From Dactylosporangium siamense (GTDB taxonomy: Bacteria > Actinomycetota > Actinomycetes > Mycobacteriales > Micromonosporaceae): 64,000 nucleotides of DNA. Location of the stretch: positions 62,001 through 126,000 of the forward strand of contig NZ_BONQ01000071.1 of NCBI RefSeq assembly GCF_016862795.1, written 5' to 3'. This document shows positions 50,984 to 54,301 of the stretch, piece after piece (positions within the stretch are counted from its first letter, which is position 1; the number at the start of each line of letters is the position of its first letter). The notes below the pieces were generated by a model that saw only the letters and a list, made by a program, of their open reading frames with translations, searched no databases and was not told where the DNA came from. The translations under genes were made by a program, and so were the position numbers.

Positions 50984-51159
50984 CAGTTCTCCCTTTCTTT
51001 GGTGACATTCCGTCATCACCGTATCGGACGCGGATTCTGGCGGATCCGGGTGTGCGGGCCGTCGGTTCGCGGCAGGATGACCAGCAGCGGACCGGTTCGG
51101 AATGTTCTGCCTGGGTAACCCGGGGAGAACGAGGTTTCGCGGCCATGGAGGTGGAGCAA

Positions 51160-51777
51160 GTGTTTGGACGTCGTGAGGTGAAGACGCACCGCCGGCTCAT
51201 GCAGGAGGAGCTCGGCGAAAGCCTGGGCCACCTGCGGATGGCCGCGGCGCATGCCGCCGATGGCGCCTCGGGGGCATTGGCGCCGCGCGTCGAAAACGCC
51301 CGGAATGCGGTCAAGCCTGGCCTCGCAAAGGCCGGCGGTGCTGCGGGGACGATCCTCATCATCGCCCGCGACCGTTCGCGCCAGGCGAGCAAGCAGGCCG
51401 AGAAGATAGGGCGCAAGGGGAAAGCGAAGATGACGAAGAACGAGAGCCGCCGCCGCTGGCCGATGGCCGTCGGTGGGCTGTTGATGGCGGGCGCGGCCGT
51501 GGGTGCGGCCACCGCGCTCATGCGGCGCCGCCGGGCCAACCAGGCCTGGGACGAATACGGCTCGACCCGCACCACCAGCGACACCGGCTCGATGCTCGAC
51601 TCGGCGAAGTCCACGATGGACGCCGGGATCGACAAGGCGAAGACGATGGGCGAGGCGGCCAAGGACCGCGCCTCGGACCTGATCGGCAGCAAGAGCACCA
51701 ACACCGGCCCCTCGGGCAGCGGTGAGTACGAAAAGCACCCGATGCCGCAGGCCGCGTCGAAGAACAGCCGCTCCTGA
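51160..51777 (+). CDS. Small single-pass membrane protein, low complexity
   Basis: 205 residues. Helical N-terminal 90 residues rich in Ala/Arg/Lys, one membrane helix ([21 protein letters not shown]) near residues 100-122 followed by MRRRR, and a Ser/Lys/Asp tail ending NSRS. No named family; the helical head slightly resembles YtxH- or apolipoprotein-like proteins. GTG 51160 is chosen because GGAGGTGGAG lies immediately upstream at the right distance; the ATG at 51145 would place that site inside the gene. It lies divergent from the cyclophilin. Role unknown. Confidence 0.78.
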
Positions 51778-51845: not shown

Positions 51846-52988
51846 CTACAGCCAGCCGGATCTTCTGAACGCCCGGTACAGCAGCGCCGATGCCACCACC
51901 ATCAGCGTCATCACGCCGGGATAGCCGAAGACCCACTTGGTCTCGGGCATGAAGTCGAAGTTCATCCCGTATACGCCGGCGACCGACGTCCACACCGCGG
52001 CGATACCGGCCCAGGCCGCGATCTTGCGCATGTCGTTGTTCTGGTCGACGCTCACCTGTGCCAGCCGCGCCTGCAGCACCGAGTTGATCACGTCGTCGAG
52101 GTACAAGACCTGCTCGACCGTGCGGACCAGGTGGTCGTTCACGTCACGGAAGTAGCGGCGGATCTCCTCCGGCACGTCCGCGAGCTGGCCGCTGACCAGA
52201 CCGGCCAGGGGACGCTGCAGCGGTAGCACGGCGCGCTTGAACTCCATCAGTTCGCGCTTGAGCTGGTACACCCGCTGAATCCGGTCCGTGCCCTTGCCCT
52301 TGGCCTTGTTTCGTTTGGCGGGGCTGAACACCTGGTCCTCGATGATCGCGACGTCCTCCTCGATGGCCGCGACCACCTCCACCATCACGTCGACGACGGT
52401 GTCGGCAACGGCGTAGGCGACCGCCCACGGCCCCCTCGCGAGGACCTCCCGGCGCCGTTCCAGGTCCGTGCGCACCGGCGTCAACCGGCAGGCGTCGCCG
52501 TGGCGGACCGTGATGATGAAGTGCTCGCCGATGAACATCAGCACGTCGCCGGTCTCCACGACCTCGCTGCTCTCGGTGAGCTCGTCGTGCTCCACGTATC
52601 GCGCGGTCCGCATGGTCATGAAGGTCATGTCGCTGTACCGCTCGACCTTCGGCCGCTGCGAGGAGTTGACGGCGTCCTCGACGGCCAGCTCGTGCAGCTG
52701 GAACGTCTCCGCGATCGCGGCCATCTCCCGCCCGCCCGGCTCCTTCAGCCCGACCCAGACGAACGCGTGCCGATGCTTGCGGGCCGCGGTGAGCGCCTCG
52801 GCGTAGTGCCAGTCACCCGGTTGGCGGACCCCGTCGACGTACAGCGCGCAGTCGACGATCGAACTGGCCGTGTCCTGCTGGACCGCGGTCGTCGTGGCCG
52901 GCATGGCCGGACTCAGCATGCGCGACATCGCTCGCACCGGACGGGCCAGCGCCCTGGACAGTGAGCCAGCCAGTTGCTCGTCGGTCAT
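51846..52988 (-). CDS. corA: CorA-family divalent cation transporter
   Basis: 380 residues. Long cytoplasmic helical domain, then two membrane helices; the selectivity motif G341-M342-N343 in VYGMNFDFMPE follows the first (WAGIAAVWTSVAGV). It forms a pentameric Mg2+ (possibly Co2+/Ni2+) channel. ATG 52988 follows AAGGGGG with 6-nt spacing; sequence upstream in frame is Pro-rich, low-complexity and lies over the hairpin leader, so it is non-coding. A 21-bp hairpin and G-tracts sit 30-100 bp upstream. Confidence 0.95.
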   Translation of the reverse strand: MTDEQLAGSLSRALARPVRAMSRMLSPAMPATTTAVQQDTASSIVDCALYVDGVRQPGDWHYAEALTAARKHRHAFVWVGLKEPGGREMAAIAETFQLHELAVEDAVNSSQRPKVERYSDMTFMTMRTARYVEHDELTESSEVVETGDVLMFIGEHFIITVRHGDACRLTPVRTDLERRREVLARGPWAVAYAVADTVVDVMVEVVAAIEEDVAIIEDQVFSPAKRNKAKGKGTDRIQRVYQLKRELMEFKRAVLPLQRPLAGLVSGQLADVPEEIRRYFRDVNDHLVRTVEQVLYLDDVINSVLQARLAQVSVDQNNDMRKIAAWAGIAAVWTSVAGVYGMNFDFMPETKWVFGYPGVMTLMVVASALLYRAFRRSGWL

Positions 52989-53017
52989 CGCGACCCCCTT
53001 GTTACATGGCAAAAGTA

Positions 53018-53076
53018 GGCACCGGGTGAGTCGACCGCAGGTGGGGGGTGGGGGCGCGGTCGACCCACCCGGTGCC
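53018..53076 (-). promoter_or_regulatory. Long hairpin in the corA 5' region, attenuator or terminator
   Basis: On the minus strand GGCACCGGGTGGGTCGACCGC and its partner pair over 21 bp (one G-U wobble) around a 17-nt loop, followed by TACTTTTGCC. The first arm is 53076-53056 and the second 53038-53018. It can end transcription 30 nt before corA. TACTTT (53017-53012) is alternatively a -10 for corA. Confidence 0.75.
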
Positions 53077-53092
53077 GTTGGGGGGCGGGGGG
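53043..53092 (+). other. Four-tract G-quadruplex motif beside and inside the hairpin
   Basis: G6 (53043-53048), G5 (53050-53054), G6 (53080-53085) and G6 (53087-53092) on the plus strand. The first pair is in the hairpin loop and the second just past its stem, so hairpin formation would bring the four tracts together. Confidence 0.6.
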
Positions 53093-53209
53093 TGATGTCT
53101 GCAGCGCGATTCAGCAAAGCGCGCCGGGCTGGATTTTGGGCCATCCGGAGCCGACTGCGGAACCCACCGCACCATCACGGTTTGGTGTCGCTTTTCTTAC
53201 AGCCTCAAC

Positions 53210-54301
53210 TCAGCCCTTCCGGACCGCTTCGATCGCGGCCGCCAGGCGGCTCACGCCCTCGTCGACCTGGTCGGTCAGCACCGCGGAGAACGCCAGCCGC
53301 ACCGCGTGCTTGCCGCCCTCCAGCAGGAAGTCGCTGCCCTTGACCACGGCGACGCCGAAGTCCCGCGCGGCCACCGTCTCCAGCTCCGTGGTGTCGATGT
53401 CCTCCGGCAGCTCCACCCATAGGAAGTAGCCACCGTCGGGCTCCACGAACGTCGCGTCGGGCACGTGCTTGCGCAGCCCCTCCGCGAGGAGGCGGGCCCG
53501 CTCACCCAACGTCGCCGACACCTTCGCGATCGACCGCTCGATGTCACCGGTCACGCAGAACTGGTGCGTGATCGCCTCGGCGACCATGCTCGGCGAGATG
53601 TAGAGGTTGGTCGCCCGCTTCGCGATCGCGGCGATCGTCTTCTGCGGTCCGACCAGGTAACCCACCCGCAGCCCGGGCGCGATCGTCTTGGTGAACGAGC
53701 TCGCGTGCACCACCACGCCGGCGGTGTCCTGCGACAGCATCGTCGGCAGCTTCTCGCCCCGCCAGCGGATGTCCGCATACGGGTCGTCCTCGAAGATCGT
53801 GAACCCGAACTCCTGCGCCAGCTCGACGAGCTTTTGGCGGCGCTGCGCCGACAGGGTCACACCGGCGGGGTTCTGGAAGTTGGGGATGATGTGCGCCAGC
53901 GTCGGCCGCACCCCGCTTTCCAGCAGCCGCCGCAACTCGTCCGTGTCGATGCCGTCGGCGTCGACCGTCACCTGGTGCACCGTGGCGCCCAGGTTGCGCA
54001 GGTTGAGCAGCGTCCGGTCGTAGGTGGGCTTCTCCACCACCACCGCGTCACCCGGCTTCACCAGGTGCTCGAACAGCAGCGCGTCGGCCTGCAGCGAACC
54101 GTTGGTCACGATCACCTGGTCCGCGTCGACGCCGTGCTTGGCCGCGATCCACGACCGCAGCGGGAGATAACCGACCGACGTGCCATAGGCGGTGATGCCA
54201 GCCGGGTCGGCCTCGAATGCCCGCACCGCAGCGGCCTTCAGCCCGTCGACGTCGATGATGTCGAGACTGGGTGCGCCACGGGCGAAAGAGATGAGCTGCA
54301 T
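53210..54301 (-). CDS. PLP-dependent aminotransferase (fold type I, MocR/LysN-like)
   Basis: 363 residues. Motifs: TNGSLQADALLFEHLV, HIIPNFQNPAGVTLS, FEDDPYADIRW, and SSFTKTIAPGLRVGY with the PLP lysine. The small C-terminal domain contains DGGYFLWVELP. Relatives are aromatic or 2-aminoadipate aminotransferases; the amino acid used is not diagnosable. TAGGCT ends 6 nt before ATG 54301, so the mRNA is probably leaderless. The 221-bp gap to corA holds the hairpin region. The gene has no enzyme neighbours of a common pathway. Confidence 0.93.
   Translation of the reverse strand: MQLISFARGAPSLDIIDVDGLKAAAVRAFEADPAGITAYGTSVGYLPLRSWIAAKHGVDADQVIVTNGSLQADALLFEHLVKPGDAVVVEKPTYDRTLLNLRNLGATVHQVTVDADGIDTDELRRLLESGVRPTLAHIIPNFQNPAGVTLSAQRRQKLVELAQEFGFTIFEDDPYADIRWRGEKLPTMLSQDTAGVVVHASSFTKTIAPGLRVGYLVGPQKTIAAIAKRATNLYISPSMVAEAITHQFCVTGDIERSIAKVSATLGERARLLAEGLRKHVPDATFVEPDGGYFLWVELPEDIDTTELETVAARDFGVAVVKGSDFLLEGGKHAVRLAFSAVLTDQVDEGVSRLAAAIEAVRKG

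Follow-up and report, generated by a model that had tools for sequence, protein, structure and literature searches.

A predicted C-rich small RNA gene in the aminotransferase-corA gap of Micromonosporaceae

Three described RNA systems come closest to the element reported here. The 6C RNA (RF01066) has two stem-loops, each of which typically carries six C, according to PMC4046766. For B11, the mycobacterial 6C, PMC10470900 reports that a target whose leader contains six G stays repressed after either C-rich loop has been changed, but not after both have been changed, that matching changes in the target restore repression, and that either C-rich loop pairs with the ribosome-binding site of the target. 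The Ms1 RNA, a 6S-like RNA of Actinobacteria, has a HAD hydrolase gene as its typical neighbour according to PMC9130861.

The window analyzed here is a stretch of 64,000 nucleotides from Dactylosporangium siamense (contig NZ_BONQ01000071.1, positions 62,001 to 126,000 of the forward strand), and positions given below are those of the window. Dactylosporangium belongs to the Micromonosporaceae, a family of soil bacteria that includes important antibiotic producers. A sequence-only reading of the window had suggested that a hairpin in front of corA is a Mg2+-dependent attenuator. Comparison with relatives leads us to conclude that this hairpin most likely makes up the 3' half of a small RNA gene that is predicted to be transcribed separately. 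The explanation that we consider probable is an autonomous small RNA gene with its own promoter, whose C-runs would pair with G-rich ribosome-binding sites, and not a corA leader. A covarying RNA gene that is mostly single-copy, lies at one locus in most genomes searched and has no match in Rfam 15 provides a handle on post-transcriptional control in the family, and the analysis puts right an annotation as a corA riboswitch that might easily be made.

The locus and its covarying hairpin

The minus strand of the window carries an aminotransferase gene (54301-53210), a gap of 221 nt and then corA (52988-51846). The features of the locus are as follows.

53210-54301 (-): class I/II aminotransferase gene, the upstream gene and the steadier neighbour (Pfam Aminotran_1_2, 6.2e-37)
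53173-53187 (-): conserved block CACCAAACCGTGATG upstream of the promoter, a possible operator; the block recurs, sometimes with a change, in the Dactylosporangium and Planosporangium gaps inspected
53158-53163 (-): -35-like box GTTCCG, by sequence
53133-53138 (-): -10-like box CAAAAT, by sequence
53011-53126 (-): predicted small RNA of about 116 nt, its start placed from the -10 box and its end from the hairpin and U-run
53102-53126 (-): 5' stem-loop SL1, from the predicted fold
53080-53094 (-): C-rich unpaired linker CACCCCCCGCCCCCC, from the alignment and the unpaired probability
53018-53076 (-): 3' hairpin SL2, the hairpin reported in the sequence-only reading, from fold energy, alignment and covariation
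53040-53054 (-): C-rich loop of SL2, from the alignment and folds
53011-53017 (-): U-rich tail UACUUUU after the hairpin, by sequence
52994-53000 (-): corA ribosome-binding site AAGGGGG, whose run of G is paired with the C-rich linker in the predicted fold of a read-through transcript
51846-52988 (-): corA, the optional neighbour (Pfam CorA, 2.6e-48; TIGR00383, 201.2 bits with a cut-off of 200.75)

A cyclophilin gene lies beyond corA in the window, and a convergent ORF without a Pfam match (51052-51777, plus strand) lies between the two. An in-frame upstream ORF (53144-51846) that would run through the hairpin was rejected, because Dactylosporangium copies that are otherwise almost identical show indels of a single base in the C-run.

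The hairpin exists on the minus strand as it had been described. Its 5' arm (53076-53055) and 3' arm (53039-53018) enclose a 15-nt loop (53054-53040) and form 21 pairs and a closing G-U, that is, a 22-pair hairpin that starts 133 nt past the aminotransferase stop and ends 29 nt before the ATG of corA (52988). The minus-strand RNA has a predicted folding energy of -48.0 kcal/mol (z -7.6), which none of 200 shuffles equalled; for the plus-strand RNA the values are -44.0 kcal/mol and z -4.2, and one of 200 shuffles did as well. The UACUUUU that had been noted after the hairpin is there, and so is the imperfect pair, which is G-U on the minus strand and A-C on the plus strand. The further claim that this wobble is preserved did not survive comparison, since the Dactylosporangium aurantiacum copy has G-C at this pair and G-U occurs in this genome alone among 34 rows; the adjoining pair is G-U in 23 of the 34.

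The nearest named relatives are Dactylosporangium. Most of the loci with both genes have a hairpin of 16-23 pairs that follows the pattern GGCRCCGGGTGGGCCG; its loop is C-rich, and so is a stretch immediately 5' of the hairpin. L025 is one of the loci that lack it. A first covariance model, built from 34 of 53 loci after 8 duplicate loci and 11 that failed the pattern had been left out, gave matches in 142 of 200 family genomes and 38 of 44 genera. A second model, built from 104 aligned copies, matched 224 of 300 Micromonosporaceae genomes that were at least 95% complete, in 34 of 38 genera; the E-values of the models are rough, owing to a short calibration. The 76 family genomes without a match include some complete assemblies, while most matched genomes have one copy. 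When the second model was applied to genomes drawn from the order and from the class, 60 of 348 and 3 of 345 were matched, every one of them a member of the Micromonosporaceae. Draws of more than 40 genomes were searched with stricter filters, at which weak matches are lost, so that the lack of matches from other families, when the order and the class were sampled, partly reflects these filters.

Altogether 84 loci were scanned, and the tallies below refer to the 82 with a match on the sense strand, excluding L153 and L025. Three of the 82 (L147, L149 and L185) were rejected as members on account of low scores, the lack of a typical linker and other contexts, L147 being alike on both strands; they are still counted in the tallies. 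L161 is a case of the usual locus truncated at a contig end; a cyclophilin ORF follows it. Some loci depart from the common form. In L143, L144 and L145 (genomes G076, G095 and G124, which belong to a single genus) three copies of the hairpin stand in tandem, head to tail, at intervals of about 121-126 nt; the second and third have neither a promoter nor the C-rich linker. In four Catellatospora loci (L042, L043, L053 and L054) another hairpin, also with a C-rich loop, immediately precedes the main one, which has an insertion on its 3' side.

The stem shows strong covariation among relatives, the check that the sequence-only reading had proposed. Across 101 distinct rows, 98.3% of the 1603 stem cells are standard pairs and 12 of the 16 pairs have double (both-side) changes, in an alignment that was fitted to the structure and so favours it. 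None of 500 shuffles reached any of five covariation measures, and sliding the structure left 39-50% of cells paired. A structure-free MAFFT alignment of 34 rows gave 16 consensus pairs, three of them with double changes. G-U cells number 131 in the stem alignment and A-C cells 9, which indicates that selection acts on RNA transcribed in the direction of the aminotransferase and corA genes. Judged by this comparison, selection acts at the RNA level, on the sense strand of these two genes. The earlier proposals of an RNA-level function in the corA direction, and of something more than a plain terminator, are upheld by the covariation and the G-U and A-C counts.

Promoter-like boxes, predicted fold and possible upstream operators

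In 76 of the 82 loci the element is preceded by the aminotransferase gene in the same orientation, so the RNA may also be co-transcribed with it, and the hairpin forms the end of the conserved block. Both observations would fit an element that belongs to the aminotransferase 3' untranslated region, either as an elaborate terminator or as a promoterless small RNA derived from the 3' end. The gap itself argues against this, because promoter-like boxes lie between the stop codon and the RNA. Among the relatives, a -10-like box was found within 130 nt upstream, 5' of the C-rich linker, in 68 of 82 (5.5 expected), and 46 of 82 (0.2 expected) combine a -10 box with TT[CGT]C at the distance of a -35 box; the patterns for these boxes, and for the corA box discussed below, were chosen after the loci had been inspected and the shuffles were mononucleotide, so that the counts of the element boxes are descriptive. 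The modelled element begins 65-411 nt past the stop codon (1010 nt in L159). Moreover, the aminotransferase is retained where the element is missing. It was found in 15 of 18 genomes without a model match, and at 10 of these 15 loci the gene is followed by corA with no element present; the other five comprise one locus where the contig stops inside the element (L228), one where it stops inside the aminotransferase (L233), one with only a distant CorA match (L231), one without CorA (L232) and one with a distant aminotransferase (L234).

A palindrome in the gap bears on the same question. TGTCRG...CYGACA is present in 36 of the 75 gaps that were usable among the 82 loci. Its centre, measured in 35 gaps, lies 56.4 +/- 3.4 nt from the -10 box and is scattered (SD 54) relative to the aminotransferase stop, and the palindrome was therefore rejected as an aminotransferase terminator. 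None was found in the 10 element-less aminotransferase-corA loci. Since it is tied to the -10 box and missing from the element-less loci, the palindrome, where present, appears to be part of the promoter of the RNA. With the boxes and the palindrome placed in this way, we regard an origin in the aminotransferase 3' untranslated region as unlikely, though worth weighing.

The predicted 116-nt RNA runs from the 5' stem-loop through an open linker to the 22-pair hairpin. Folding was carried out for 63 of the 82 relatives, those with a findable -10 box and at least 95 nt, and the predicted length in these has a median of 121 nt and a range of 108-209 nt, with start and end placed by prediction. 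For the 5' part the median z is -2.0 against mononucleotide shuffles, and 48 of the 63 values fall below -1.5; some of the 5' stems have compensating changes between relatives, as seen by eye. A C-tract occurs in the linker of 87 and a loop with five or more consecutive C in 95 of 98 aligned rows (101 less three truncated rows). The loop C-run is unpaired in all 63 folds, and the linker has a mean unpaired probability of at least 0.7 in 41 of 59 relatives, making the two C-runs the most constant unpaired parts of the molecule. At least four U occur in the 10 nt after the stem in just 30 of 100 rows, and at most one U in 39, so that termination at this point is not obvious for the rest.

In the mechanism that we propose, a promoter of its own in the aminotransferase-corA gap would give rise to an RNA of roughly 110-210 nt, in which a stem-loop at the 5' end is followed by a single-stranded C-rich linker and, at the 3' end, by a very stable hairpin with a C-rich loop. 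The two exposed C-runs would base-pair, as in 6C/B11, with G-rich sequences, mainly ribosome-binding sites, and this pairing would lower the translation of several mRNAs in trans. By analogy with B11, the RNA may in this manner silence other messages through its C-runs.

The small RNA might instead act through protein binding, as a sponge or a scaffold. The lower stem is conserved in sequence beyond what pairing demands, with invariant columns, and in the tandem arrays the hairpin recurs while the linker does not, both of which would suit a protein ligand. We know of no candidate protein partner for the RNA, which counts against this reading, and the most constant unpaired parts are the C-runs, as in the pairing RNA B11/6C. 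An action through protein binding is in our view quite unlikely.

The pairing RNA that we favour may have more than one kind of operator. The TGTCRG palindrome is absent from the gap of this window. Searches for the exact palindrome found it in 12 of 12 genomes, with 1-9 matches per genome on both strands and 0 for a reversed-pattern control, several of the 12 having been picked because they carry it at the RNA locus. Other inverted repeats, TGGCG...CGCCA and TGGCGGTTATGCGAC...ATAACCGCCA, were noted by eye upstream of the promoter in L146, L148, L160, L162 and L194-L199; it looks as if the operator had been exchanged and the RNA retained.

In six of 22 loci of BldN-family sigma genes the palindrome was also seen, 732-835 nt ahead of the sigma domain, in full in L284, L285 and L287 and with one mismatch in L272, L275 and L282. 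Shuffles never attained the full palindrome score, and they reached the one-mismatch score in some of the BldN-family loci. Two of the six loci are in genomes without the RNA, and the genome of the window (L290) has no palindrome at this place. One could speculate that the RNA is a family-specific master small RNA in development, which in some genomes shares a palindromic operator with the BldN-family sigma gene and represses many mRNAs with G-rich ribosome-binding sites independently of 6C. We think this decidedly unlikely, the more so as shuffles attained the one-mismatch score; another operator would be needed in this window, since the palindrome is absent from its gap.

Separation of the element from corA

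The gene corA lies downstream of the element in 61 of the 82 loci. An aminotransferase upstream and corA downstream are both present in 59 loci, 17 have the aminotransferase without corA (within the approximately 1.5 kb read), two have corA alone and four have neither. The downstream ORFs were compared for 12 of the 17 corA-less loci, and a cyclophilin ORF (Pfam Pro_isomerase) follows in five of them. ORFs resembling the convergent ORF of the window lie at the same place in L141 and L123 (BLASTP 4e-11 and 2e-7, single comparisons). The cyclophilin ORF and the similar convergent ORF indicate that the order of the window, minus corA, is found there; other corA-less loci, for example L150 and L152, have different genes downstream.

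These data bear on the attenuator proposed in the sequence-only reading, in which the hairpin would stop transcription in the corA leader in a Mg2+-dependent manner. Several features suit such a device: corA follows the element in most loci, and in Dactylosporangium the hairpin is stable, a U-rich tail follows it, and it ends 27-55 nt from the start of the corA match. A transcript reading through to corA is predicted to fold with the C-rich linker paired to the corA ribosome-binding site, and the gap of this window has no corA promoter-like box between the hairpin and corA, so that read-through into corA is possible in Dactylosporangium. An additional effect of the element on corA in this genus is therefore possible.

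Across the loci, the element and corA come apart in both directions. A Mg2+-responsive leader would be expected to occur together with corA, but 17 of the 82 loci have the element without corA and the 10 element-less loci have corA without the element. The spacing from the end of the model to the estimated corA start varies between 16 and 385 nt. In 38 of 58 gaps (4.2 expected; 58 of the 61, three gaps shorter than 60 nt being left out) a promoter-like box for corA, of the GTA..[CT]T type, follows the hairpin. The element has promoter-like boxes of its own, and no Rfam family was found at gathering score. Comparison among relatives shows that the element is separable from corA and that the promoter-like boxes recur. 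We consequently hold a Mg2+-dependent attenuator of corA, disfavoured by this two-way separation, to be very improbable.

A DNA-level element, a G-quadruplex or cruciform on the G-rich strand, can hardly be credited: the four plus-strand G-tracts that had prompted the suggestion of a quadruplex are present opposite the loop (53043 and 53050) and, beside the stem, opposite the linker (53080 and 53087), but the canonical quadruplex motif (G3+N1-7)x4 is absent from 52989-53209 and occurs in just 4 of the 82 elements, and the G-U and A-C counts point to RNA.

Comparison with known RNAs

Rfam 15 gave no family at gathering score in the window or in the loci of 12 relatives, and low-score matches, among them miRNA families and Scr3202 and all well short of the gathering score, were taken as chance. 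In the open-licence literature, no published description of the RNA was found among the matches listed, and an earlier mention elsewhere is possible.

In this genome the autonomous small RNA gene that we propose ends in a GC-rich stem and a U-rich tail (53017-53011), which gives it some likeness to an intrinsic terminator. It differs from a terminator in its conserved C-rich loop, its conserved C-rich linker and its promoter-like boxes, and in that the U-rich tail is found in only 30 of 100 relatives. Like Ms1, it would be a conserved small RNA gene that can be recognized by its neighbours, and PMC9130861 lists Ms1 for genera of the Micromonosporaceae, including Dactylosporangium. Unlike Ms1 as described there, the element follows an aminotransferase gene and has no HAD hydrolase neighbour, its neighbours being the aminotransferase and CorA genes; it is by these neighbours, not by structure, that we set it apart from Ms1.

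The closest likeness is to 6C/B11 (RF01066), actinobacterial small RNAs of about 100 nt with exposed C-runs, as described in PMC10470900 and PMC4046766. The 6C model gave no gathering match in the window or in the loci of the 12 relatives, and 6C is absent from the E<=10 list for 52900-53300. In this genome 6C is a separate gene (G000:C88:14342-14415, 59.9 bits), and it was found in 10 of the 12 genomes tested; G010 and G112 have a match to the new RNA, and 6C was not found in them. Where 6C has two C-rich loops, the predicted fold of the element combines a single C-rich loop with a C-rich linker that is unpaired, and it also differs from 6C in its 22-pair hairpin and in its locus. These results suggest a second C-rich small RNA beside 6C and independent of it.
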